Source: a virus. Taken from it: 41,988 nt of DNA. Positions 8,029 to 39,114 of the stretch are shown here, in pieces. Every line of letters begins with the position of its first letter. The stretch's first letter is position 1. The translations under genes and the position numbers were made by a program. The notes below the pieces were generated by a model. That model searched no databases. It was not told the DNA's origin and worked only from the letters and a program-made list of their open reading frames with translations. Location of the stretch: positions 1 through 41,988 of the IMG/VR virus record IMGVR_UViG_3300025030_000214; one strand, written 5' to 3'.

Positions 8029-8367
8029 ATGGAACCGGCAAATCACAAACTTAATATCTACATCGGCGCCGACTTCGAACAGAGCTTTGTCCTCACTGTC
8101 GGCGGCGTTGCTATGGACCTGACCGGCTATTCCGCAGAGTCTCAGATCCGCGACACTCACGGGCGGCTGATTGCAGATTTGGCCGTTGCGGTTGAAGCGG
8201 CAGAGGGCCGAGTGACTGTAAGCCTCCTCCGTGCAGACACTGCACTGATACAACGCAGCTCCGGTGAATGGGATTTATTCCTCATCAACCCAAGCGGCAA
8301 GGCTGAACCGTATATCTCCGGCTCCGTGGAATTCTGGCGCACATCAACGGTGGTGGCTGATGCCTGA
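8029..8367 (+). CDS. Beta-rich phage protein, possible fibre base
   Basis: This 112-residue protein contains an ADFEQSFVLTVGG start, MDLTGYSAESQIRD, an EGRVTVSLLRADTA segment and a final GEWDLFLINPSG strand. This pattern is like the N-terminal Ig-like domains of baseplate or receptor-binding-protein upper parts (BppU-type). It overlaps the next, fibre-like gene by 8 bases, which supports a structural partnership with it. No enzymatic motif is present. The exact family is inferred by shape of sequence only. Confidence 0.65.
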   Translation: MEPANHKLNIYIGADFEQSFVLTVGGVAMDLTGYSAESQIRDTHGRLIADLAVAVEAAEGRVTVSLLRADTALIQRSSGEWDLFLINPSGKAEPYISGSVEFWRTSTVVADA

Positions 8368-9862
8368 TATCGAGATTGCAGTTGAGACGACGAGCGTAAT
8401 CACGGTTGAGGTCGAGCGAACCGGGCCACAGGGACCGGGCGCATCCGTTTTGGGCCGCGCACTCTCCGGGGAAGCTATCACGCTGTACGGACTCGACAAC
8501 GGCGCGGGACTCCCTGGCGCAGTCCTGCAAGCGCAGATTGACGCCTATATCGCAGCGGGAGTGCCGGAAGCCGCTATAGGATGGTGGAGTACTGGCACTG
8601 AAGCGGCGGGCGGGGCTGTGTCGGATTCGATGGGAAGTCTCGCGCTCACGGCGTCGGCAACCTTGGCACTCTCCGCACTCTCTGGCGTGCAAACCGCCTC
8701 AATGGGTGTACTATCCCTCACCGCTCCGGCAACCCTCGCCCTTGGCACTCTCGCAGGCGTGGAAGTCTCAGAAGGATCCGCCTCTCTCGGCGCTCTCTCC
8801 CTGACCGCATCGTCAACTCTCTCCCTCGGCACACTCTCAGGCGCCCAGAATGGCGATATGGGCGCGTTGGGTCTGACGGCAGGGGCAACACTGGCACTCG
8901 GCATCTTGGAGGGTGTGGAGGTGGCAGGCGGCACGAATGCGTCGATGGGTGCGCTAGGCCTGACCGCACCGGCTACGCTGGCACTTGGGACGCTGGCTAG
9001 TGGATCACCAGTACTTGATGCCCCGACCCTCTCTCCGGTGATACCAGGTGATGGGGTCAACACCCTGACATGGAGCGCAGTATCCGGTGCTGGAGTTAGC
9101 TCATATCGGATTTACTGGACTTCTGACGGAAGTAACCCAACGAAGTCATCTTCTGTCATTACACCAGTCTCTTCTCCATATCAACACATTGGGCTGACGA
9201 ACGGAATTACCTACAAATATGCGGTCACTGCCTCTGATGCAGCGAATCAGAAAGAGTCGGCACTGTCCAATGTTCTAAGCGGTACTCCTGCCGGTGCCTC
9301 TCTGGTCTTTAGCGATACGTTTAGTGAAGCTACTATAGATGCTGCCAAGTGGAACCCGATGGTGGTCACAGGTTCTATTACGAGTCCGGCTGCATCAATA
9401 GATGCAGGTAGACTGAAATTCACATGGAGTGGCAACATTCTGGTGGGTGGAAATCTTGACATGTTAACGGTACCTGAGTTCCAAGTTAACGCGAATATGA
9501 CGAGAGTGGTTTTAACTCCCCTAAGTGCTTCCCCAAGCCCTACTGCCTCGTATTACTTTCGCATAGCAGGGAGTCTAAATTCATCAACTATTACATTGCA
9601 GAACTATGATGATGGCGAAATGTGGGGTGTATTGGTATTCCTAAACGGGGTTATGTCTATGGACATAGCGGAAACACACACCGACAACAACCCCATAGAG
9701 ATCAAGATGCTTTCCAGAACATCTGTTCAACTTAAAATCTCTGGCAACACATTAAACAGTATTTCTATACCAGACATCGGTCCGACATATCAGTTAGGAT
9801 TAGTAGCAGGTCCTTGGAGCGGATCGCCCACCTACTTTGACAATGTGGAGGTCTATCAGTAA
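8360..9862 (+). CDS. Fibre-like protein: repeats, FN3, lectin-like end
   Basis: ATG 8360 gives 500 residues; an earlier in-frame codon at 8264 lies deep inside the preceding gene and is rejected. Domains in order: a short N-terminal beta segment with GPQGPG (residues 1-30); a helix (about 45-75); five tandem repeats around LTAPATLALGTL (about 90-215); a fibronectin type III domain (about 217-315, with LTWSAV and SYRIYW); and a C-terminal domain beginning DTFSEATIDAAKWN that resembles concanavalin-like carbohydrate-binding folds. From about 9010 onward the DNA is visibly more AT-rich than neighbouring genes, a sign of module acquisition. Likely a tail or head fibre with receptor-binding function; its position among neck genes is unusual. 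Confidence 0.75.
   Translation: MPDIEIAVETTSVITVEVERTGPQGPGASVLGRALSGEAITLYGLDNGAGLPGAVLQAQIDAYIAAGVPEAAIGWWSTGTEAAGGAVSDSMGSLALTASATLALSALSGVQTASMGVLSLTAPATLALGTLAGVEVSEGSASLGALSLTASSTLSLGTLSGAQNGDMGALGLTAGATLALGILEGVEVAGGTNASMGALGLTAPATLALGTLASGSPVLDAPTLSPVIPGDGVNTLTWSAVSGAGVSSYRIYWTSDGSNPTKSSSVITPVSSPYQHIGLTNGITYKYAVTASDAANQKESALSNVLSGTPAGASLVFSDTFSEATIDAAKWNPMVVTGSITSPAASIDAGRLKFTWSGNILVGGNLDMLTVPEFQVNANMTRVVLTPLSASPSPTASYYFRIAGSLNSSTITLQNYDDGEMWGVLVFLNGVMSMDIAETHTDNNPIEIKMLSRTSVQLKISGNTLNSISIPDIGPTYQLGLVAGPWSGSPTYFDNVEVYQ
8627..9004 (+). repeat. Five tandem fibre repeats (25-28 aa units)
   Basis: Five degenerate coding repeats with core S-[LM]-G-x-L-x-LTA-x-xTL-x-L-x-x-L and variable linkers (GVQTA, GVEVSEGSA, GAQNGD, GVEVAGGTNA). 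The units are about 75-84 bases each. The same unit recurs three times at the end of the neighbouring gene (11824-12050). The shared unit suggests a common stalk or a recombination platform. Confidence 0.85.
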
Positions 9863-9930: not shown

Positions 9931-12144
9931 ATGGCCGTATCACTATACGCAGCAAGGGCAATAGGGGCTTCAGTATATGATGCATCTGTAGCGATATTAG
10001 GTATCTACGAACCTTACGTTGACGGTGCGCGGATAGGCTACACGTCTGGGGGCTTGCCAGCCGGATACACGGATAAATTTTACGCCCATCACATTACAAT
10101 AACTCTGACCAACTATACAGACGCTATCCTTGCGGCAGAAACGACGAATGGGAACCTCACCACCATTACCCTTGCGGGTTTGGACAGTGGCCGAGATTAC
10201 TTCGTGGCGTGCGTCAGGTTCGATGCAAGCGGGGCCGCCGTCGCTATAAGCCCCTGTGAAATTATCAAAACCGTGACAGACCGGATAGAAGTACTCCCAC
10301 CTTTTGCGACTAAAACCGCAGATTGGTCCACCGCCAAGCTCAATGAGTGGTTTGTTCAACCTACTGCACCTTATGACAACAGCACCATGTTTTTCTCCTA
10401 TTACAAGCAGAATGACGCTGAAATGGGAAACTATCTAAGGGTAATGGACGATCGCCCAATTTACGTCCTTGATGCCAATGAGACAGAAACGCCATTTACA
10501 CACACATTTTCAGGTTTTGTCGGGTGCGATGGATTGTCGCCGAGGCATGGCTGGCATGTAGAGGCTCAGTTGAGGGTAGCGGACCGATACGTTCCGGGAT
10601 CATCTGGGCCGACGCAACTGGAATGTGGCGTGACTATGGGCGATCAGGCATCGGCAAAGGCTTCCTACGGCCTCTCCCACGCAATATATCCATCGATAGG
10701 TAACGATTACCCTGTAGGCACTGATGTTACAGCCGATTTCTCTGAACCTGAGGTGCTGCACTGGTCTACGTGTTATGGTGTGATGAAGGACCAGCTAGAC
10801 AAGAACCTGTTATATCCTTGGGCGGGTGCTGGGTGGAGAACCCATGCAGTCAGTGGTCCCAAGGGGTGGGCGAGAGACAAGCACACAGTTTCAGTGGAAT
10901 ACGATGCCGCAGTAAAAGAAGCTACCATCAAGTTTAACAACCAAACATTGGTGACGTTGGGGCAGATCCATGATACACCGTATCGCAGAAAGAAGTTTCC
11001 GCACGGTCATTACGCCCTCCCTGCTAGACTTTCTCTAGAATGGCAGTTTTTGGGTCCGGGGAATCCTCTCAGCTATTACGACATAGGGACTCTCTCATAC
11101 CAGAGTTCGTGCCCGATGTACTACGCCGGTTGGTCGGCAGAGACTCAAGTTCAGGGCGGGCTTCATGGTTATCTGGACAGATTCGCAGAGGTACCATATC
11201 ACGATCCCTCAAAGCACAGCCTCAATAACTTTTGGTATGTCGATAACGCAAATGACCCTACTTCTCGCGGCAGGTTCGGCTCGGCCATGCACGCGGGATA
11301 CACCGTCACGCCGAGTAGTCCATACTTATACGAAGCTCCAAGCCACAAGGTAATCCATTTTGAAGAGATGGAGCCGACGAACTGGAGCAACTATACAGTT
11401 CCTACATGGTCAACGGATTTGCACAGGGGGCGGACTTTACCCGTTCATGTCCCGGAGGGTACCAGATTAGCTTACGTGGTCCTACATGGCTATCAGCAGT
11501 ACGGCACCATAGTTGCTCGGGTGCTAGACCAGAATGGCGTGGCGATATCTACCGATCTGCCAATAATCAGTGTTGCAGATGCTCAACCTATCGCCATACC
11601 GGAGAATACAGCTACCTCCATACAGATAGAGGTAGATATACAGTATGACGGTACACCTATAGATTATACAACAATGGGTCCGGGAGGTTCGGGTTCTAGT
11701 AATAATGGAGACTGGCCCACCCAAGACATTTGGCGACCAGCCACACCTCCCCTCTTTGTGGGTTTTGAGGCGTACTTTGCGGACCCGTTGAACATACCGG
11801 AGTTTGACCCCACAGTGGACGCATCGCTTGGTGAACTCTCCCTTGCGGCCCCCGCTACCATGGCGCTTGGCACCCTTTCCGGCACATCCGGCACAGTCAG
11901 CGCATCCCTTGGCACCCTATCGCTCACGGCTCCTGCTATCGTTGCGCTAGGCACTCTCTCTGGCACGTATAGCGCAGGCTCAGCCTCTCTCGGCACCCTG
12001 GCACTCACCGCACCCTCAACGCTCGGACTCGGCGCACTGTCGGGAGTGACCACGGCGGCGAACCAGATCAGGGCGCCGAATGGTGATGTGCGGGTATTGC
12101 GGAACGTGGACGGCACGATCAGAACTTTTAATCTTTTAGCATAG
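9931..12144 (+). CDS. Large fibre-like protein with C-terminal repeats
   Basis: This 737-residue protein starts at ATG 9931 behind AGGAGCT after a 68-base gap. Residues about 1-115 look like a beta-sandwich (DYFVACVRFD near residue 90). Residues about 120-620 form a large region of no recognised family, rich in aromatic residues, Pro and Gly, with several Cys. The end (about 632-707) carries three of the same repeats as the preceding fibre, then an NQIRAPNGDVRVLRN tail. The DNA from about 9931 to 11800 is AT-richer with different codon use, then returns to local GC in the repeats. Probably receptor-binding or glycan-processing, but no catalytic motif was identified. Confidence 0.7.
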   Translation: MAVSLYAARAIGASVYDASVAILGIYEPYVDGARIGYTSGGLPAGYTDKFYAHHITITLTNYTDAILAAETTNGNLTTITLAGLDSGRDYFVACVRFDASGAAVAISPCEIIKTVTDRIEVLPPFATKTADWSTAKLNEWFVQPTAPYDNSTMFFSYYKQNDAEMGNYLRVMDDRPIYVLDANETETPFTHTFSGFVGCDGLSPRHGWHVEAQLRVADRYVPGSSGPTQLECGVTMGDQASAKASYGLSHAIYPSIGNDYPVGTDVTADFSEPEVLHWSTCYGVMKDQLDKNLLYPWAGAGWRTHAVSGPKGWARDKHTVSVEYDAAVKEATIKFNNQTLVTLGQIHDTPYRRKKFPHGHYALPARLSLEWQFLGPGNPLSYYDIGTLSYQSSCPMYYAGWSAETQVQGGLHGYLDRFAEVPYHDPSKHSLNNFWYVDNANDPTSRGRFGSAMHAGYTVTPSSPYLYEAPSHKVIHFEEMEPTNWSNYTVPTWSTDLHRGRTLPVHVPEGTRLAYVVLHGYQQYGTIVARVLDQNGVAISTDLPIISVADAQPIAIPENTATSIQIEVDIQYDGTPIDYTTMGPGGSGSSNNGDWPTQDIWRPATPPLFVGFEAYFADPLNIPEFDPTVDASLGELSLAAPATMALGTLSGTSGTVSASLGTLSLTAPAIVALGTLSGTYSAGSASLGTLALTAPSTLGLGALSGVTTAANQIRAPNGDVRVLRNVDGTIRTFNLLA
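11824..12050 (+). repeat. Three tandem fibre repeats, shared with upstream gene
   Basis: Three units, each with SLG-x-L-x-L-x-AP core and ALGTLSG-like end (SLGELSLAAP, SLGTLSLTAP, SLGTLALTAP), about 75-80 bases each. They match the array at 8627-9004 in protein and partly in DNA. The GC content rises sharply where the array begins. Confidence 0.85.
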
Positions 12145-26851: not shown

Positions 26852-27060
26852 TCAAGCGCAAACAAGGCGAAACAAACCGGCAGTTTGAGGCGCGGATAGA
26901 GGGCTATCTGCACATGGCGACGGCGGCCTGTCTGATCGTCGCGATCATGCTGCTCTATTCGCTGGCGGTTCCTACTCCGGCGCCGACGCTGCAGTACGAG
27001 CGGGATATGAACGGGGCGCTGCGGCACTCGGCGCAGGAGATAGCCAAGGGAGGTGAGTAG
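26848..27060 (+). CDS. Single-pass membrane protein
   Basis: A GTG start at 26848 overlaps the winged-helix stop. The 70-residue protein has a basic N-terminus (IKRKQGETNRQFEARIEGY), one membrane segment (about residues 23-42, MATAACLIVAIMLLYSLAV) and a short polar C-terminus, suggesting N-in topology by the positive-inside rule. It is in the middle of an early operon, so a holin role is unlikely. Function unknown; host takeover or exclusion possible. Confidence 0.65.
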   Translation: MIKRKQGETNRQFEARIEGYLHMATAACLIVAIMLLYSLAVPTPAPTLQYERDMNGALRHSAQEIAKGGE

Positions 27061-27254
27061 TGAAAGTCGACAATCCGACATTCGGTAAAAACAGCGGCGC
27101 GGTGGGCTGTATCGAGTGCCCGTTCGCGGATGTCCACGGCACACTGAATACGCGCGGCCTGTGCTCAGGGTGGGAGTGGGATCATGATGACGAGTGCCCG
27201 ACCGCGGAAACGTACCAGGAAGCGTGTGAGCTGGCGGAAAAGGCGGTGCAGTGA
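27060..27254 (+). CDS. Small Cys/acidic early protein
   Basis: GTG 27060 follows GGGAGGTGAGTA and gives 64 residues. Four cysteines (GCIECPF, GLCSGW, DECPTA) with an acidic WEWDHDDE stretch suggest a small metal-binding fold (C-x-x-C ... C ... C). Last four bases overlap the following gene. No family recognised. Confidence 0.6.
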   Translation: MKVDNPTFGKNSGAVGCIECPFADVHGTLNTRGLCSGWEWDHDDECPTAETYQEACELAEKAVQ

Positions 27255-27550
27255 TGACAACACGGAATCTTCCACGACTGCTTGAGGAAGGGCGTGTCGA
27301 GGTGAGGTTGTCGAGCATCGGCGGTACTCACGTTTTAGAGGAGTCAGGAATTGACCGGCTACTATCTCACCTGACGGAAGCAAAGAGCCTGTTGAGTCCG
27401 AACCGTAACGCCAAGGTGACCGTCAACGCATGCTCAAAATGCAACGGCTGGCAATTCTATACCGTGTCCGAGATCGACGGACGCGAGGGAGTCGTTTTGC
27501 AGTGCTCTAAGTGCAAAACCATTGAGCGGATCCGGCGCGATGCGGAGTGA
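27254..27550 (+). CDS. Zinc-ribbon early protein
   Basis: ATG 27254 overlaps the preceding stop (TGATG) and gives 98 residues. The N-terminal half (about 1-50) is charged and helical. The C-terminal half contains two CxxC knuckles, ACSKCNGW (about residues 60-67) and QCSKCKTI (83-90), a typical zinc ribbon. Likely nucleic-acid or protein binding. No enzyme motif. It overlaps the next small gene by 11 bases. Confidence 0.7.
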   Translation: MTTRNLPRLLEEGRVEVRLSSIGGTHVLEESGIDRLLSHLTEAKSLLSPNRNAKVTVNACSKCNGWQFYTVSEIDGREGVVLQCSKCKTIERIRRDAE

Positions 27551-28600: not shown

Positions 28601-28648
28601 ATGATGCCACAAGAACAGGAAGAAATCAAGGGGGAGCCCAATGGGTAA
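28601..28648 (+). CDS. Possible 15-residue leader peptide
   Basis: ATG 28601 lies at the end of a very strong AACAGGAGGA site (overlapping spacing 2-5), and the frame MMPQEQEEIKGEPNG stops at 28648, overlapping the ATG of the next gene at 28641 by 8 bases. The downstream gene has its own GGGGGAG site inside this frame. This could be a translational-coupling leader or chance. Confidence 0.3.
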   Translation: MMPQEQEEIKGEPNG

Positions 28649-29525
28649 GGAGTTGGCGGTCAGAAACGCGGGCCAAACCGCAGAGTACAAGCCGAAAAGC
28701 CTGATCGAGTTGGCGCAGGGTAAGGCGGTCATTAACCAGATGATGAAGGCGATCATGAAGGGGCCGACCAAGGAGAACCCCCTGGGCGTCCACTATGGGA
28801 CCATCCCGGGGACTCCCAAGCCGACGCTCTTCAAGGCGGGGAGCGAGTTGATCCTTTCCACCTTCCGCATCTCGGTTGACGTGGAGGTCGAGGACCTCTC
28901 CACCGACGACTGCATCAGGTACCGCGTCAAGTCCATCGGGCGAATCCCTGACGGGACCGTCGTGGGCTATGGCATCGGCGAATGCTCCACCGACGAGGAG
29001 AAGTATCGCTGGAAGAAGCCGGCCTGTGATGAGGAGTGGGAGGCGACGGATCCGACCTTGCGCCGCGAGAAGTGGGGCAAGGGTTTCAAGGCCAAGCAGA
29101 TCCGCACCGTTCCCGCAGACCTCGCAAACACGGTCCTGAAGATGGCTAAGAAGCGGTCACAGATCGATCTCACCCTGACGGCCACCGGTGCGAGCGACGT
29201 GTTCGACCAGGACCTCGAAGACCTGAAGGATGTGATCGACATCACCGAGTACGAAAAGCCGAAGGGCGGCAAACCGGAAGTGAAGGCGCCGCAGTCGACG
29301 AGCCAGGCGCAGGGAAGCACAGGGGCGGCCGGCGGTGGAGATAAGGACCCGGCGGCCAAGATCTCAGCCGGCGGCGCGGTGTACCTCACCAAGCAGCTCG
29401 ACGCCAAGAGCATACCTCACGCGGATTTCTGCGAGTTCATGAAGGTGTCCGCCATCGCCGACATCACCAACGCCGACTTCAACGCGGCGTGTGCAGCTGT
29501 CAAGAAGTGGGAAGCGCAGCCGTGA
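28641..29525 (+). CDS. Conserved phage DNA-metabolism protein, role unknown
   Basis: This 294-residue protein has a recognisable widespread pattern: PTLFKAGSELILSTFRIS (about residues 61-78), GTVVGYGIGECSTDEEKYRW (105-124), and ANTVLKMAKKRSQIDLTLTATGASDVFDQDLED (about 162-194). The same signature occurs in many uncharacterised phage and plasmid proteins, usually near single-strand annealing or nuclease genes. A linker rich in Gly, Ser and Gln and a C-terminal helical domain (about 245-294) follow. I infer a role in recombination or single-strand DNA handling; no catalytic residues identified. It overlaps the nuclease-like gene by 4 bases. Confidence 0.6.
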   Translation: MGKELAVRNAGQTAEYKPKSLIELAQGKAVINQMMKAIMKGPTKENPLGVHYGTIPGTPKPTLFKAGSELILSTFRISVDVEVEDLSTDDCIRYRVKSIGRIPDGTVVGYGIGECSTDEEKYRWKKPACDEEWEATDPTLRREKWGKGFKAKQIRTVPADLANTVLKMAKKRSQIDLTLTATGASDVFDQDLEDLKDVIDITEYEKPKGGKPEVKAPQSTSQAQGSTGAAGGGDKDPAAKISAGGAVYLTKQLDAKSIPHADFCEFMKVSAIADITNADFNAACAAVKKWEAQP

Positions 29526-30154
29526 CAACCCTTGATCTTGCCTTCGACCCGATAGCGCACCATTACTTCCTGAACAAGGAGCGCCTCCCTTCGGTGTCGG
29601 AGATCAAGGAGCCGCTGACCGATTTCAGCATGGTCTCTCCGGACGTGATGGCTCGGGCCTCGGCCTTCGGCACAGCAGTTCATCAGATGGTGGAGCTCTA
29701 CCTCTCCAACGAGCTCGACTATGCCAGCCTGGACGAAAACCTTTATGGCTCCCTGGAAGCGTTTGAGCGCTGGCTTGACGAGGTGAAGCCTTTCCAGTCT
29801 GGCCCCGCGCTCATCGATGTCAAGAGCCGGAAGTACGACCGCGTTGCCGATCCGGTGCAGCTCGCCGCTTACAACCAGCTGGTGCAGGAGAACGACATTA
29901 GGGAGGTCACCATCGAGCGCCCCCTTGCCAGCATCAAGCACCGTTACGCCGGGACTCCGGACATCATCATTCCCGCGAAGGACGGCAGCCTCATTACCAA
30001 CCTTCGCATCCTCTACCTCGGGCAGGATGGGCGCTACGCCTACACTCCCGCCTATGACCCGAACGCATGGCCGGTCTTCGGCCGACTGCTCGCCGACTAT
30101 CACCGGCGGCAAATTACCAATCAAATGATCCATTCCTGGAGGAATCGCATATGA
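29522..30154 (+). CDS. PD-(D/E)XK-like nuclease with permuted motifs
   Basis: GTG 29522 overlaps the previous stop and gives 210 residues. Family marks are AFGTAVHQMVELY (alpha 1, about residues 45-57), ALIDVKSRKYDRV with PVQLAAYNQL (the D/E-x-K strand and Q helix, about 98-121) and YAGTPDIII (metal-binding Asp, about 141-149), then an LYLGQDGRYAYTP ending typical of phage exonuclease-like proteins. In relatives the GTPD segment comes before the IDVKS segment; here the order is reversed. Likely a RecB-type exonuclease acting with neighbouring recombination genes, if still active. Confidence 0.6.
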   Translation: MTTLDLAFDPIAHHYFLNKERLPSVSEIKEPLTDFSMVSPDVMARASAFGTAVHQMVELYLSNELDYASLDENLYGSLEAFERWLDEVKPFQSGPALIDVKSRKYDRVADPVQLAAYNQLVQENDIREVTIERPLASIKHRYAGTPDIIIPAKDGSLITNLRILYLGQDGRYAYTPAYDPNAWPVFGRLLADYHRRQITNQMIHSWRNRI

Positions 30155-30888
30155 GCAGCAATCTCGCCGAGAGAATCGAAATAGAGCAACCGCCGATGGA
30201 TAACGCGCTGACGGCGTACCAACAGATCCTGGTGTTGGAGATCAACAATCAGGAGACCATGGGCCACATGGCCGACCTGGTTAAGCAGATGAAGACCGGC
30301 ATCAAGGGAATCAAGGAGTGGTTCAAGCCGCTCAAGGAGAGCGCGGCCAAGGCGCACAAGGATATCTGCGCTCGGGAAAACGAGACACTGGCCCCCTTCG
30401 TGGAGGCAGAGACCGCCGGACAGAAGGCGATCAACACTTTCCTCAACGAGGAGAAGAAGAAAGCGGACGCCGAGGCGCTGCGCCTGCAGCAGGAAGCGGC
30501 AGAGAAGAAAAAGAAGGAGCAGGAAGGACTGGAGGCTTCCGCGAAGGCTCTCGAAGAGCTTGGCAGCACGACGGCTGCAGCGGCACTCAGGCAGGAAGCC
30601 GAGCGCGTTATTGAGGCTCCCGTGTTCACTCCGACCGTCGACCGCACCGTAAGAGTCGGTGGCGGAAGCGCCGGCGGCGGAACAACCCTTTCTGCTCAGA
30701 CCGAGCTGGTCGTTCAGGTCACCAACGTCAAGGCCTTCCTGCGCTACCTGGTGGAGAAGGATAGTGCGGCGACCTTCGTTGAATTTCCGGTCCGCGCCCT
30801 CACCAACTGGGTGAAGGCGAACGGCTTGAAGGCAGGCGACGTGCCCGGCCTCGCCATTGAAGAGCGGCTCAAGTCGAGCATTCGCTAA
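30151..30888 (+). CDS. Coiled-coil protein of the recombination cluster
   Basis: ATG 30151 overlaps the previous stop and gives 245 residues. The N-terminal half (about 15-160) is a long coiled coil with a TGIKGIKEWFKPLKESAAKAHK segment and a highly charged Lys/Glu stretch. The C-terminal part (about 185-245) begins RTVRVGGG and has VTNVKAFLRYLVEKD. This two-part layout is common in phage proteins lying beside annealing-protein and nuclease genes. No enzymatic motif. Probably a scaffold or DNA-end factor; function unproven. Confidence 0.6.
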   Translation: MSSNLAERIEIEQPPMDNALTAYQQILVLEINNQETMGHMADLVKQMKTGIKGIKEWFKPLKESAAKAHKDICARENETLAPFVEAETAGQKAINTFLNEEKKKADAEALRLQQEAAEKKKKEQEGLEASAKALEELGSTTAAAALRQEAERVIEAPVFTPTVDRTVRVGGGSAGGGTTLSAQTELVVQVTNVKAFLRYLVEKDSAATFVEFPVRALTNWVKANGLKAGDVPGLAIEERLKSSIR

Positions 30889-30898
30889 GGAGGATTTC

Positions 30899-33529
30899 GT
30901 GACCAACGAATCAACAGCAATAAAAACCGCCGAGCGCCTGCACCATCTCGTAAACCTCCCCTCCGATCTGGCAGAGGTGGAGCGCCTGAGGCTGATCGGC
31001 GTCGGCATCCATCGGCAGATCGCGGAGACTGACGAGCAGTTGCACGTTCTGGCGACGACCAGGACAGAGCTGGAGCAGGCGCAGCTCGCAAACTCCGAGG
31101 CGCTGCTTTCCGCGATCCAGCGCGTTGACGATGTGCTGGGGGCTTTGTACCGGCCTGCAGAGGTAGTTGTCGAGAACGTTGTCAAGGTGACGCGCACCAA
31201 AAAGAAGGAAGAAGCCCCGGCCCCTCCCGCTCAAAGGGAGGCTTCCACCCCCGCCGAAAAACACCCCTGCCACCTCTGCGAAGATGTCTTTTACCACAAG
31301 GTCGATCTGGTGAAGCATCTGCGCCTTAGCCACAAGCTCTCCATGGAGGAATCGGTTAAGCCTGTAGAGACCATCGAGGATCACGGCTTTAACACCGACG
31401 CTCGCAGGGCCCAACTCGTAGCCGAGAAGGCCGACCGGGATTCGAAGTGCGACAAGTGGCTTGACTGCGAGCATGCCAAAGCCTGCTTTGATCCTGATAA
31501 GGCCGCATTGCAAGGCACGTACTGTATGCCCAAAACCGCCCTCTCCCTCAATATCCACATCTGCGATTACTGCCGCGCCGCTCACCCTGGCTGCACCGAT
31601 TGCTGCGACACCTGCAATACCGCGTGCAATTCCATTCAGGGTTGCCGCATGGCGGAGATGCGTGAGCAGTACGAGGCGACGGCGGAACCCAGGATACCGA
31701 TTGAGGATTTCATCCAGGAGTACAAAGTCAATCATGGGCTAACTTACCAGATCGTCAAGGGTGGAGCTTCTTCACCGTCCGCCCCCTGCTGGAACTCCTC
31801 TTGCGCCTGGGCCGATCTCGCCCAACCTGACCACTGCGACGCTGACGGGCAGTTTCGCGCGGGGCGTCCGGTGGCCGAGTGCAAATGCTTCGTGAACGGC
31901 ATCGGCCCGACCAAGGGTCAGGATGCGGCCGCCTGCTTCAACACGAACTGCCCTTCGAATGATCCGACGTTGCCGACTTGCTGCGAAGAGTGGGAAGAGG
32001 TGTGGGAGTGCCCTGAGGTGGTTACGGCGGGATGGGGGGCTGCGAAGGAAGCTGACGTGCTGAGCGGCAACGATGACGCCGCGCTGACCGACGATTTAAC
32101 CCTGAGTCGCCACGAACCGGCAGAGGCGATCCTTCCGCGCGGTGAATTTAAAGCGGCAGACGTTCCCAAGGGCAAGAAGAAGCAGCTCGCAATGCTGGAG
32201 GCGCTCAGGGCGGATGTGGCCAAGCTGGTTGCGAGGCGCATCGATCTGTTCAAACGCGGCAGCGCGGCTGTTAGCGATTATGACAAGGGCATGGGGTATG
32301 ACCTCGATTACAACCTGACGCAGAACAAGATCCAGCTCGGCTACGCGCTATCGCAATTCAACGGCCTGAACGAGTTGCTGAACCCTTCAGCTCCCGCCCC
32401 AGCAAGAGAAGTCGAAAAACAGGAAGCCGCACAGCCGGTGGACGAATCACCCGCGCAGGCCTCAGAAATCGTCCGCTGCGACAACCCCGCCTGCGAATAC
32501 TCCGACCCGTCCGCTCTCGACGGCTGCTTCGTCCCGGCAGAAGAGCGCCACGGCAAGCCCCTCAACAAGTGCCCCAATTTCAAGGAGACCCCCGATGAGA
32601 CAGCTACGCAGGAAACGGGACCGGAGAGCGATGAGACGGAACAAAGCGGCGCTGCTGATGCTGTTCCTGCTTCTGAACCGGTAGCCTTCGCCCCCCTTGA
32701 CGCCCCCCTGGGCGACTGCGAACTCTGCCACGGCTACGGCGTTATCGACGGGGAGCTTTACGGCGAATTTGCGCTGGTCCCCTGCACCTGTGAGGCGGGG
32801 GAAAAAGTAGCCGGTCACGCACCTGAGGAACCGCTGCTCAAGTGCTGCCAGGATTGCAGTATTAAGGACCCCGCTTGTGCAGACTGCCACCTTCCCGACA
32901 TGGAGTCGCCGTTTGAGGTGGAGGGAGAGCCCGTCACCTATCCGCCACTGACCGCCGAAAGGGCGAGCGCGGACGTGAACGCAATGCTCAAGCTCGCCGA
33001 AATCCCCAAGTGCGCCAACGGCCCCTGCACGGCGACCGGTAAGAAGCCGAAGGACATTTGCCTGCGCGTCCAGGGGAAGGAGTGCAAGAACTTTGTCCCG
33101 CTTGAAAAGTGCACTCACCACATGATGAAGCGGTCGACGGTCGACGGCGCCACCGTCTGCGACCTCTGCGGCTTCGTGCTCCACGAAGCTCCCAAGGTCG
33201 AGCCGGTGAAGTGCGGCAACAAGCATTGCAGCACCTACGACGCCTCCAAGAACAGCAACTGCGGCGCTATCGAGGACCTCCTGAAGACTTCCGGCGAGCA
33301 GCGGATGGCCTCGGGTTGTAAGGAGTACAAGCCTGTCAACCTCGCTAACGCCGAACCGGTAAAACCAACCCTCACCCCCATGCAGCAGAAGTGCACTCAT
33401 CCGAAGGTATTCCGCGAACAGACGGAAGCCGGGGAGGTCTGCAAGGTGTGTAAGCTGGTTCTCTCCGGGGGGGGCAACCGGGACTCTTTTCGGCTAGAGG
33501 CTGAGGTATGGGATGGGGTGCGACACTGA
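30899..33529 (+). CDS. Giant cysteine-rich multi-zinc-module protein
   Basis: GTG 30899 with GGAGG five bases upstream gives 876 residues with about 51 cysteines, nearly all in clusters. The N-terminus (about 1-110) is a coiled coil. A classical C2H2 finger pattern lies at residues 124-145 (C-x2-C-x12-H-x4-H, HPCHLCEDVF). Cys-rich modules follow at about 180-255. At least five copies of a module C-x-N-x-x-C ... C ... C-K/P-x-F/Y start near residues 297, 346, 527, 705 and 772. A DnaJ-like CELCHGYG/PCTC pair lies near 602-630. Two zinc-ribbon-like CTH...CxxC units start at 738 and 832. A helical spacer (about 420-500) splits the arrays. No known family matched the whole. It may be a multi-metal scaffold for DNA or protein binding. 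Confidence 0.8.
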   Translation: MTNESTAIKTAERLHHLVNLPSDLAEVERLRLIGVGIHRQIAETDEQLHVLATTRTELEQAQLANSEALLSAIQRVDDVLGALYRPAEVVVENVVKVTRTKKKEEAPAPPAQREASTPAEKHPCHLCEDVFYHKVDLVKHLRLSHKLSMEESVKPVETIEDHGFNTDARRAQLVAEKADRDSKCDKWLDCEHAKACFDPDKAALQGTYCMPKTALSLNIHICDYCRAAHPGCTDCCDTCNTACNSIQGCRMAEMREQYEATAEPRIPIEDFIQEYKVNHGLTYQIVKGGASSPSAPCWNSSCAWADLAQPDHCDADGQFRAGRPVAECKCFVNGIGPTKGQDAAACFNTNCPSNDPTLPTCCEEWEEVWECPEVVTAGWGAAKEADVLSGNDDAALTDDLTLSRHEPAEAILPRGEFKAADVPKGKKKQLAMLEALRADVAKLVARRIDLFKRGSAAVSDYDKGMGYDLDYNLTQNKIQLGYALSQFNGLNELLNPSAPAPAREVEKQEAAQPVDESPAQASEIVRCDNPACEYSDPSALDGCFVPAEERHGKPLNKCPNFKETPDETATQETGPESDETEQSGAADAVPASEPVAFAPLDAPLGDCELCHGYGVIDGELYGEFALVPCTCEAGEKVAGHAPEEPLLKCCQDCSIKDPACADCHLPDMESPFEVEGEPVTYPPLTAERASADVNAMLKLAEIPKCANGPCTATGKKPKDICLRVQGKECKNFVPLEKCTHHMMKRSTVDGATVCDLCGFVLHEAPKVEPVKCGNKHCSTYDASKNSNCGAIEDLLKTSGEQRMASGCKEYKPVNLANAEPVKPTLTPMQQKCTHPKVFREQTEAGEVCKVCKLVLSGGGNRDSFRLEAEVWDGVRH

Positions 33530-34305: not shown

Positions 34306-35472
34306 ATGGGCATCTTAAGCAATACCGTCAACATCTGCCACTTCCGCGTGATGGGGGAATGGGCCTCAGATCTCGACTTTTACTTCGAAGCGCCGCAGCT
34401 GCTTACCCACAACCGCTTCAACTCCATCGATGACACCACTGACGAACTCTCCCTCGGATGGGTCCATCTGGACGATCCGAAGGCGAACAACTTCAACCCG
34501 CCCCACTGCTGGCGCGACCACTACCTCATGTTCTCGCTGCGCCGCGATCAGCGCAAGATTCCGGCCGCGCTCCTGAAGGAGCACATGGAGAAGGCGCAGG
34601 ACAAGTTCCTGGCCGAAAATCCCGGATACACCCGCGTTCCGAAGTTGAAGAAGGAAGAGATCAAGGAAGCCGTCCGCCTCAAGCTGCTCGCAAAGACGCT
34701 ACCCGACCCTAAGACCTATGACGTTGTGTGGGATACGCAGCGCAATCTGGTCACCTTCACCACTCTTTCACAGAAGACCGTCGAGCTTTTCCAAGACCAC
34801 TTCAAGAAGACCTTCGAGGGACTGCGCCTTGTCGCCTTCCATCCCTACGAGCGCGGCATGTTGTGCCTCGACAGCAACGGTCAGCTTCTCCTCAGGCAGG
34901 CGAACAAGGCCGGCGGCGATAGCTACCTGGAACTGATCCAGGAAAATCAGTGGATCGGCAAAGACTTCCTGCTCTGGCTGCTCTATCAGACCATGAACAA
35001 GGCGTCCGAGTATCGCGTCAACCAGAACGGTCCCACGTTGAAAGGCGAGCAGTTCGTCGCCTACATCAACGACAAGGTGGTGCTGACCGGCGAGGGCGAA
35101 GGCGGGACACAGATGATCACCGTCAACGGTCCTCAGGATCGGTTTATCGAGGTCAAGAGCGCGCTTGGATCCAAGAGCATTACCGAGGCAACGATTCACC
35201 TGGAGGCTGCAGACGAGAGTTGGTGCCTGACCCTCAAGGGCGGCATCTTCCACTTCGCTTCTTTCAGTTCCCCCGCGGTGAAGATCGAGAAGGACAACAC
35301 GGTCGATGAGCAGACGGAGCGCGAGGCGGTTTTCTTCGAGAGGATGGCGCTGCTGGAAAAGGGCCTGCAGCTTTTCGATTCCCTCTTCCACACCTTTCTG
35401 AATGCGCGACTTGGTGGCGACTGGGGCTTCATCTCGACTGGCATCAACGAGTGGGTGGGCGGAGATCAGTAA
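34306..35472 (+). CDS. rdgC: RdgC-like recombination-associated protein
   Basis: The 388-residue protein starts at ATG 34306, seven bases after GGAG. RdgC forms a ring around double-stranded DNA and limits RecA filament action. Family features are a LGWVHLDD segment (about 49-56), the long KIPAALLKEHMEKAQ helix with KLKKEEIKEAVRLKLLAKTLPDP, YDVVWDTQRNLVTFTT (beta hairpin, about 139-154) and a C-terminal beta domain. It is longer than the roughly 300-residue E. coli protein, with an extra C-terminal part (about 290-388). In phages, RdgC-like proteins often lie in replication/recombination blocks, as here beside RusA. Confidence 0.82.
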   Translation: MGILSNTVNICHFRVMGEWASDLDFYFEAPQLLTHNRFNSIDDTTDELSLGWVHLDDPKANNFNPPHCWRDHYLMFSLRRDQRKIPAALLKEHMEKAQDKFLAENPGYTRVPKLKKEEIKEAVRLKLLAKTLPDPKTYDVVWDTQRNLVTFTTLSQKTVELFQDHFKKTFEGLRLVAFHPYERGMLCLDSNGQLLLRQANKAGGDSYLELIQENQWIGKDFLLWLLYQTMNKASEYRVNQNGPTLKGEQFVAYINDKVVLTGEGEGGTQMITVNGPQDRFIEVKSALGSKSITEATIHLEAADESWCLTLKGGIFHFASFSSPAVKIEKDNTVDEQTEREAVFFERMALLEKGLQLFDSLFHTFLNARLGGDWGFISTGINEWVGGDQ

Positions 35473-35915
35473 TGGTCACCTTCTTCGTGCCAGGGGTTCC
35501 TATCCCCAAGGGGAGTGCCAAAGGGTTCTACAACAAAGCCCTCGGCCGCGTAATGATCGTCCAGGACAACAAGGAAAAGCAAGCACCCTGGGCGTCGATG
35601 ATAGCCGTCGTCGCTCAGGAGTTTTTCTCTAAGCCTATCGAGGGGCCGGTGATGGTCAGCCTGGCCTTTAAGATGCCGCGCCTAAAGGGCCACTTTGGGA
35701 GCGGCAAGAATGCAGGGGTCTTGAAGGCTTCCGCGCCGATCTACCACACCGTAAAACCTGACGTGGACAAGCTGGAACGCTGCATCTACGACGCTCTGAC
35801 AGGCATAGCTTGGAAGGATGACTGTCAGGTATCCGTGGTCGCCCACAAGAGTAAGAAATACGGCGACAAGCCTGGATGCTGGATCAAGATCAGTGAAATC
35901 AAGGAGGGGTTTTGA
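35472..35915 (+). CDS. rusA: RusA-type Holliday junction resolvase
   Basis: ATG 35472 overlaps the rdgC stop (TAATG) and gives 147 residues. The RusA pattern is clear: a FFVPGVPIPKGSAKG start and KPDVDKLERCIYDALTGIAWKDDCQV-type active site with aspartates D97, D99 and D116/D117 and K100. The enzyme resolves four-way junctions made during phage recombination and replication. It is followed by an overlapping small gene (TGATG). All catalytic positions seem present. Confidence 0.92.
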   Translation: MVTFFVPGVPIPKGSAKGFYNKALGRVMIVQDNKEKQAPWASMIAVVAQEFFSKPIEGPVMVSLAFKMPRLKGHFGSGKNAGVLKASAPIYHTVKPDVDKLERCIYDALTGIAWKDDCQVSVVAHKSKKYGDKPGCWIKISEIKEGF

Positions 35916-36583
35916 TGGCGCCGGATCTCAAGCTTTTCACCTGCCACCGCCTAAGGGCAACCATCACAGAGCGCCAATGCGGGCTTAACCGCAACGGCTA
36001 CCGGTCGAAGGGGCTGAACGTCGCCCCGATCATTTCATGTAAGGGCTGCTTCGGGCTGGGAGAGTCGGCGCAGATCCCGCTACCAAAGGAGGAAATTGTG
36101 AAAAAGAAAAAGATTGAATGCGGCCGGGATGGCTGCGGTTACGGAGTAAAGAAAGAGGGCGACTTCTGCAAGAAGCACCAGGAGCCCGTCACTATATCGG
36201 AAGAGAAGCAGCAGCGCGGGCTTGATGACGGGCCGCTGCTGCCCCGCAAGTACGCGTCTGACCTGTCCAGCGTTATCACTGACGCGCCGGTAAAGAATCA
36301 GGACGCCGAGATTGTCGAGCACAAAAGCATTGACGAAGCCACGCCGGAAGAATGGGACTCTGCAGCAGCGGCAGTGAGGGAAACCTCTGACCTCCAAATT
36401 TCGCCCGTAACACTTCCCGACCCTGAAAAGCAGACAGACCCCTGCGCCGAATCCGTTTCGCCCCTTTTCCGCCTGCTGGCGGTCGCCGTACCACCACCAC
36501 CGCCCATGCCCCCCCTGTTCATTTGTGGTAACTCTCGACGCCTACCGATATTCGAAGTTTGTAGAAGCGGAGATCAACGCTGA
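35915..36583 (+). CDS. Zinc-finger-like protein with probable frameshift
   Basis: ATG 35915 overlaps the rusA stop and follows AAGGAGGGG. The frame as sequenced gives 222 residues. The N-terminal part has Cys patterns: CHRLRATITERQCGLN, SCKGCFGLG (about 7-50) and ECGRDGCGYGVKKEGDFCKKH (about 69-90). A Pro/Asp-rich linker leads to AVAVPPPPPMPP. After the run of seven C (36509-36515) the sequence in this frame becomes nonsense, while the frame one base on reads VVTLDAYRYSKFVEAEINAEDVARLV... to TAA 36653. One C fewer would give about 245 residues. So this is a frameshift, a sequencing error or programmed slippage. Confidence 0.6.
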   Translation: MAPDLKLFTCHRLRATITERQCGLNRNGYRSKGLNVAPIISCKGCFGLGESAQIPLPKEEIVKKKKIECGRDGCGYGVKKEGDFCKKHQEPVTISEEKQQRGLDDGPLLPRKYASDLSSVITDAPVKNQDAEIVEHKSIDEATPEEWDSAAAAVRETSDLQISPVTLPDPEKQTDPCAESVSPLFRLLAVAVPPPPPMPPLFICGNSRRLPIFEVCRSGDQR

Positions 36584-38193: not shown

Positions 38194-39114
38194 ATGGCAC
38201 AGATAGACAGGACGGGAGTGGTCAGTTTCGGGGATGCTACCTTGAGCGTGTGGGAGGAGGGGATTAGCACCGCTCGGGCCAACGGTGGGTTTAAGGGCGC
38301 AGCCGAATGGGAGCGGAGTTTCAAAAGACAGGTATTCATCCGAATTGTCCAGACTCTCAACCGCACCGGCTGGACCTGCGTTGTCCCTGAAGAGATGGTT
38401 GAGCAGTACGGTCTGTCATTCGCGAGGAATTACCGCTACTGCGTCAAAGGCAACCTTAAAGCCGCCCTTTCCGTCTCTGGTCGGTGCATCAAGCTTGAGA
38501 TGTTCCAGAACGTAAACGCACCTGACAGGCCGGATCATGAAGGGCGTTACCAGTTCGACAAAGAGCGCCATATGCCTTACGTACTGCGCCTGGAGATGGA
38601 GAGGACGAGGAGAAAGATCAGAGCTTACCTCTGCAACGTCTTCGCCGGTTACACCTTCAAGGCTGACCGCGCCGACGGCCGGCAGAACAAGTGTGGCCCT
38701 GGGCACCTCACCAACATGGAATGGCTTGCTGGGCGATATGAGGAATGTTGGCATTTCAAAGGAGACCTGACTACCTACAAGATCAGCGACTCCAACCGCA
38801 AGTCTGCAGACGGTCAAGAACTCCAGCACGGCCAGCGTGTTTGGTTCTTTGACTGGAAGGGACGGGTGCAGACCGGCGTTGCCTACTACAACATCAACAA
38901 CATGTGGTGGGTGCTCTGGGGTAAATATGGACATACCAACGAGGCTTCTTTTAAACTGTTCACGGCTCCCCCTGCCGATGTCAGGCGCAAGCAAAACGAC
39001 AAACTGCGCGAAAAACGGCTGAAGGCGCTCATGGATAAGGCAGTAGCGGATATGAAATTTGAGAGGGCTGCGCTGCTTCGGGATCTTCTGTACCCGGAAC
39101 GTGAGGCGGCATAA
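38194..39114 (+). CDS. Unknown protein with C-terminal UVR motif
   Basis: This 306-residue protein starts at ATG 38194 behind AAGGGGGGG. The N-terminal domain (about 30-170) is basic and aromatic (EWERSFKRQVFIRIVQTLNRTGWTC, then RRKIRAYLCNVFAGYTFKADRAD). The middle (about 205-260) is beta-rich. The C-terminus contains LMDKAVADMKFERAALLRDLL-type sequence, the UVR motif by which UvrB and UvrC interact. It lies between two stop-codon hairpins. No known family matched the whole; interaction with host nucleotide-excision repair is inference from the motif. Confidence 0.6.
   Translation: MAQIDRTGVVSFGDATLSVWEEGISTARANGGFKGAAEWERSFKRQVFIRIVQTLNRTGWTCVVPEEMVEQYGLSFARNYRYCVKGNLKAALSVSGRCIKLEMFQNVNAPDRPDHEGRYQFDKERHMPYVLRLEMERTRRKIRAYLCNVFAGYTFKADRADGRQNKCGPGHLTNMEWLAGRYEECWHFKGDLTTYKISDSNRKSADGQELQHGQRVWFFDWKGRVQTGVAYYNINNMWWVLWGKYGHTNEASFKLFTAPPADVRRKQNDKLREKRLKALMDKAVADMKFERAALLRDLLYPEREAA

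Follow-up and report, generated by a model that had tools for sequence, protein, structure and literature searches.

Metallothioneins are small proteins of about 30% Cys that lack distinct modules. The Ros/MucR prokaryotic zinc-finger regulators, the subject of a review (PMC9779718), are small proteins of about 140 aa with a single C2H2-like finger. The protein considered here, P0001, has 876 aa and 51 Cys and is encoded on the + strand at 30899–33529 of a 41,988-bp virus record in IMG/VR, the whole of which is called the window. PHROG matches to terminase, portal, major head protein, tape measure, tail fibre J and integrase indicate that the window is a temperate tailed phage, probably a siphovirus. 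The P0001 gene begins with GTG, preceded by the ribosome-binding sequence TAAGGAGG (30886–30893, +), and its translation bore out the reading frame, length and number of cysteines given in a preliminary description of the locus. Its GC3 of 0.74 is similar to that of its neighbours, which excludes a spurious frame. The cysteines make up 5.8% of the protein, compared with 0–2.4% for most other window genes tested and 4.5% for a second Cys-module gene at 35912. All 51 lie inside 12 compact modules that occupy 35% of the protein, with none stray. On these patterns P0001 is probably an array of more than 10 metal-binding modules, with zinc as the presumptive metal, and the earlier suggestion of ten or more metal sites thus gains probable support.

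The chain opens with a Cys-free segment of 122 residues (30899–31264, +), which has a counterpart in the L309 orthologue described below (DQQLQVLANDKAALE...) and which, judged by inspection, is probably a coiled coil. An internal duplication of this segment was considered and is unsupported (181/1000 shuffles). The modules, all on the + strand, begin with a finger at residues 124–145 (31268–31333), where the preliminary description had placed a C2H2 finger; it follows the pattern C-x2-C-x3-F-x5-L-x2-H-x3-5-H and has, besides the ligands, the core residues Phe131 and Leu137. Against the Pfam model zf-C2H2 (PF00096) it scores 17.6 bits, under the gathering cut-off of 25.2, and the claim is therefore limited to a C2H2-like finger. 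Three units had been overlooked: module B (C-x2-W-x2-C-x5-CF-x11-C; residues 184–209, 31448–31525), the 8-Cys module C (CxxC-x6-CxxCCxxCxxxCNxxxxC; residues 222–249, 31562–31645) and module C' (CxxC-x6-CxxC; residues 649–663, 32843–32887). As C' equals the first half of C, it suggests two separate sites in C, which would probably bind two metal ions. The five C-x-N-x-x-C starts reported earlier match, to the base, those of modules A1 (residues 297–330, 31787–31888), A2 (residues 346–371, 31934–32011), A3 (residues 527–558, 32477–32572), A4 (residues 705–729, 33011–33085) and A5 (residues 772–807, 33212–33319). Also present as described are a DnaJ-like CxxC...CxC site, module D (residues 607–631, 32717–32791), and two CTH...CxxC ribbons, E1 (residues 738–757, 33110–33169) and E2 (residues 832–851, 33392–33451); E2 reaches 15 bits with A2L_zn_ribbon, under the cut-off. 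The idea of a tandem-repeat array holds as far as the array goes, but a single repeat does not, as there are at least six module types and they vary between orthologues. The P0001 gene contains no long DNA-level repeats, which rules out recent tandem duplication as the origin of the modules and indicates that they, the A copies included, are old.

None of 20,000 shuffles of P0001 reproduced the five A modules, the 8-Cys module C or module B. Of these shuffles, 3 gave two E ribbons, 29 gave at least nine CxxC and 145 gave the C2H2 pattern by itself. Whole P0001 found no family match in Pfam, NCBIfam or PADLOC, chance-level matches only in PHROG and no sequence match in the PDB; it matched no non-metal-binding family with confidence. 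Profile searches of the PDB with modules A, B and C likewise gave chance-level matches only, and these three modules are new to Pfam, NCBIfam and solved structures. A literature search of incomplete coverage found no description of a protein like P0001. AlphaFold gave weak models of module C (mean pLDDT 67.8) and of a relative, P0005 (mean pLDDT 46.6), and three Foldseek searches returned nothing significant. A mixed-fragment alignment intended for AlphaFold was dropped, as MAFFT had placed unlike module types on top of one another.

Direct queries with the P0001 sequence gave no match among 50,697 phage records and 72,556 plasmids or in a first IMG/VR scan, and orthologues were located only through a synteny search with the neighbouring RusA. 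They are in L309 (3300025030_000241) and L310 (3300028558_000079), whose RusA proteins are 90% and 82% identical to that of the window. In both, the module gene has the same position and neighbours as in the window, and the Cys of shared modules are all retained. The L309 protein has 605 aa and is about 51% identical to P0001. Eight modules are common to the two, with 31/31 module Cys retained and a non-Cys identity of 61%, so that the preserved Cys spacing expected of homologues is what was found. The C, C, F, L, H and H of the finger, including His 140 and 145, are all kept in L309, as are 29/34 residues and Cys 5/5 of A1, 22/26 residues of A2, 23/25 residues and Cys 4/4 of D, 22/25 residues and Cys 4/4 of A4, and Cys 3/3 of each ribbon together with His740 (E1) and His834 (E2); C' is present too. 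Non-Cys identity is 74% within modules versus 56% outside them. From A1 onwards, dN is about 0.19 and omega about 0.13 at a dS of about 1.4, which is near saturation; omega is 0.09 for modules and 0.17 for linkers. The gene is thus under purifying selection, and the modules are more constrained than the linkers.

The orthologues differ from P0001 in which modules they have. L309 lacks A3 and A5, each as a clean module-sized gap, and another Cys segment, CTRESICGNAEDCNNGEPC, replaces B plus C. The L310 protein, ended by the contig edge, has a different set: B, an A3-like module, two D-like sites where P0001 has one, C', a variant ribbon and E2. This gain and loss of modules, with Cys kept, among the three proteins shows that the modules are whole evolutionary units. 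Since its relatives gain and lose whole modules yet keep the ligand Cys, P0001 looks like a binding hub of interchangeable parts, not an ordinary enzyme.

More distant relatives extend this picture. In phages whose terminases are 78–81% identical to that of the window, a protein of 357 aa contains a single A module and a single B module, and further module proteins were found, some of them in Geobacterales/Deltaproteobacteria MAGs; a possible host link to Geobacterales comes solely through these relatives. Seven relatives, P0002–P0008 (228–415 aa), share an N-domain weakly matching phrog_12688, followed by the module sets A-B (P0002–P0004), A-C-B (P0005, P0007), A-A (P0006) or A-B then C (P0008). 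A phrog_12688-like N-domain with a different Cys module occurs in L293. These Geobacterales-type phage proteins resemble P0001 in the Cys spacing of A, B and C, in acidity and in their place in a replication/recombination block, but have the conserved N-domain and two or three modules where P0001 has 12 modules and no such domain. Hhalign aligned module A2 alone (E 1.6e-5), and comparisons with the N-terminal and linker regions of P0001 were not significant; linker 373–526 has a marginal likeness to the N-domain (17–162/1000 shuffles), for which no homology is claimed. Profiles built from relatives only, with P0001 left out, recognise its A2 (31.3 bits), B (14.7 bits) and C (37.9 bits), compared with maxima of 8.8, 5.2 and 7.8 bits, respectively, in 1000 shuffles. 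A1, A3, A4 and A5 are individually not significant against the relatives-only profile, A3 and A5 agreeing with the relatives in pattern only. A protein of L225, retrieved by the C-module pattern alone, matched also in its A and B modules, in a search whose E-values, like some others from module profiles, rest partly on the modules of P0001 itself.

DNA-pattern scans of viral contigs, followed by a profile, traced module C through other proteins, and nine of its columns are invariant across 20 sequences. It forms the C-terminal end of phage ParB-like proteins in L048 and L241, identified by family matches, and in L191, L216 and L250, identified by sequence. In these five proteins the terminal 8-Cys module, CxxC-x6-CxxCCxxCxxxCNxxQxC, lies outside the ParB-type family matches. 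In a MuA-type transposase (phrog_310; L232:5307-8168, 954 aa) module C is near the N-terminus, after an NDNHDNHD repeat. It occurs too in proteins from Mu-like neighbourhoods (L043, L072, L171, L286), in small proteins of L085 and L093, and in L199. A module C+B protein (L102:1091-1948) is encoded directly after a sliding-clamp gene (phrog_947). Modules A, B and C therefore recur in unrelated phage proteins: those of Geobacterales-type phages, ParB-like, MuA-type and clamp-adjacent proteins. The L102 protein starts with MATDFVQMDLLAWAG, resembling a clamp-binding motif, and the small C-module protein of L093 ends in the clamp-motif-like QLELFDL. A sliding-clamp motif sought in P0001 gave just a poor QLAML at residue 429, and no motif is claimed.

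The preliminary description placed the gene between recombination genes, and the order is indeed exonuclease, P0001, RdgC and RusA. Upstream, on the + strand, are a phrog_10048 protein that may be an annealing protein (28641–29525; the L309 segment is 76% identical), a PHROG exonuclease of PD-(D/E)XK-like type with a weak Pfam match (29489–30154; 71%) and a protein of phrog_10477, a family labelled exonuclease (30067–30888; 57%). Downstream, on the same strand, are an RdgC-like recombination protein (34306–35472; 77%), the RusA Holliday-junction resolvase that served as synteny anchor (35451–35915) and the second Cys-module protein (35912–36583), which has 10 Cys and an F module, C..LRATIT..QC..N...CxxC.GLG. 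Homologues of this last protein occur in L310 (54%) and L035 (36%), and the L225 DUF3310 protein has a module resembling its F module. The gene order of L309 is that of the window: phrog_10048, exonuclease, phrog_10477, module protein, KTSC (51%), RdgC and RusA. A helicase-methylase-like gene is inserted directly after the module gene in L309. It encodes an apparent helicase and DNA-methylase fusion of 835 aa (L309:3664-6171) and starts inside the end of the module gene; L199 carries a similar gene and the window none. L199 carries its module gene between those for exonuclease VIII and for a RusA that shares 54% identity with the RusA of the window; the L225 block runs RusA, Sak4, SSB-like, module gene, helicase, DUF3310, Cas4-like nuclease and primase. 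In L309, L025 and L225 the downstream helicase gene shares between a few and about 50 bp with the module gene; none adjoins it in L031, L032, L035 or the window. Module genes are thus placed in the recombination/replication blocks of several phages.

Some other genes of the window may be recorded here. Two long genes, at 8264–9862 (532 aa) and 9931–12144 (737 aa), lie between the head-completion and the tail genes. PHROG has no match for either, and their GC3 of 0.52–0.54 is much lower than that of their neighbours (about 0.7), as if they were recently acquired. A 306-aa protein (38194–39114) has a very strong match to phrog_7674 and a C-terminal UVR motif above the Pfam cut-off. Within 27060–27550 are two small Cys-containing ORFs of 64 and 99 aa, the latter zinc-ribbon-like with weak Pfam matches.

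P0001 is thus a genuine array of modules, conserved, cassette-like and probably zinc-stapled, within a recombination/replication block. We tentatively suggest, at something just short of even confidence, that it serves the phage recombination/replication machinery as an acidic, multi-zinc scaffold for protein interactions, probably in oligomeric form. The Cys-free N-terminal segment, probably a coiled coil, is followed by about twelve small modules, which would be strung along flexible acidic linkers, each held by one metal ion and module C by two, giving about 13 sites. Each module would be a stapled knob that docks a partner, candidates being the annealing protein, exonuclease, RdgC, RusA and helicase/primase, and P0001 would gather these partners at recombination or replication intermediates. 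In its evolution, modules are added and deleted whole. If the modules dock in this way, they would reveal how the partners in recombination and replication are connected in phages, and they would amount to a kit of tiny protein-binding parts that can be swapped.

The strongest alternative, though an unlikely one, is that P0001 binds nucleic acid, as a multi-finger array contacting DNA or RNA at recombination or replication intermediates in the manner of tandem zinc fingers. Its C2H2 finger has a classical core, its gene lies among those for exonuclease, RdgC and RusA, and module C is fused to ParB-like and MuA-like DNA-binding proteins; module C there and the finger would fit DNA contact too. 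But P0001 has a net charge of −46 and a pI of 5.0, and most of its modules are neutral or negative, only A4 being positive. Its relatives are similarly acidic (pI 4.5–4.9 for those of the P0002–P0008 type, 4.4 for the L199 protein), and the pI of 4.5–5.0 across P0001 and its relatives disfavours non-specific nucleic-acid binding by the array, although acidity alone does not bar DNA contact by single modules. Moreover, ParB and MuA bind DNA through domains of their own, and module C there may make a protein contact. Given the charge, a scaffold for protein interactions is favoured above both a DNA-binding array and a zinc sink. Together with the heterogeneous modules, constrained non-ligand residues and constant placement, the charge argues for a scaffold rather than a general nucleic-acid-binding array. 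Of the possibilities raised in the preliminary description, a DNA or protein scaffold or a zinc sink, the protein scaffold is favoured; the other two are disfavoured by the acidity and by the conservation of non-ligand residues.

It is quite unlikely that P0001 is instead a multi-specific decoy or anti-defence hub binding host factors, with rapid module turnover tracking a host repertoire that changes. Such turnover is seen between close orthologues, several of whose flanking genes are 70–90% identical, and the modules are missing from nearly all host-group genomes searched: among 277 Desulfuromonadia genomes the profiles found A in 2 and C in 4. In a further search, 395 genomes of the phylum held no prophage orthologue of P0001 or the L309 protein, a P0010 query giving 0 matches. 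Yet P0001 matches no PADLOC model of a known anti-phage defence protein, no host target was identified, and the gene keeps a constant position within the recombination block, not with the early accessory genes.

It seems improbable that the modules hold iron-sulfur clusters in place of zinc, with which they would sense or tune redox state in anaerobic hosts. Geobacterales are anaerobes, and relatives come from Geobacterales MAGs; modules A, B and C are all-Cys, and the run C-x2-C-C-x2-C-x3-C of module C is somewhat ferredoxin-like in spacing. The C2H2 finger and the two Cys3His ribbons are, however, zinc-type designs, and structural zinc sites typically show such a Cys density and spacing. A metallothionein-like sink or buffer for zinc or thiols, suggested by 51 thiols and about 13 possible sites, is very improbable for a protein of just 5.8% Cys with at least six distinct module designs and better-conserved non-ligand module residues than linkers, encoded within a recombination operon.

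The protein-interaction scaffold can be set against the known systems. Metallothioneins share with P0001 many Cys in metal-ligand-like motifs, but P0001 departs from them with 876 aa, a low Cys content and non-Cys module residues that are 74% conserved. The eukaryotic-type C2H2 finger (PF00096) has the same ligands and the hydrophobic core F and L, but in P0001 it is a single, sub-threshold finger embedded among other modules. Unlike the Ros/MucR regulators, P0001 has eleven further modules and no whole-protein match in Pfam or NCBIfam. The ParB-like proteins of L048, L191, L216, L241 and L250 and the MuA-like protein of L232 share module C with P0001, but in those proteins it is a single appendage to a large known domain, whereas in P0001 it is one of 12 modules with no known domain. 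Phage annotation usually passes over small Cys modules, whose shortness puts them out of reach of family models, and a module pool would let annotators recognise many 'hypothetical' phage proteins. It is possible, though doubtful, that P0001 represents an undescribed class of phage hub, a recombination/replication scaffold built from a common pool of mini metal-binding modules that phages swap as whole units between unrelated proteins such as hubs, ParB, MuA and clamp-linked proteins. If so, this class would be the prokaryotic-virus counterpart of the eukaryotic multi-zinc-finger interaction proteins.
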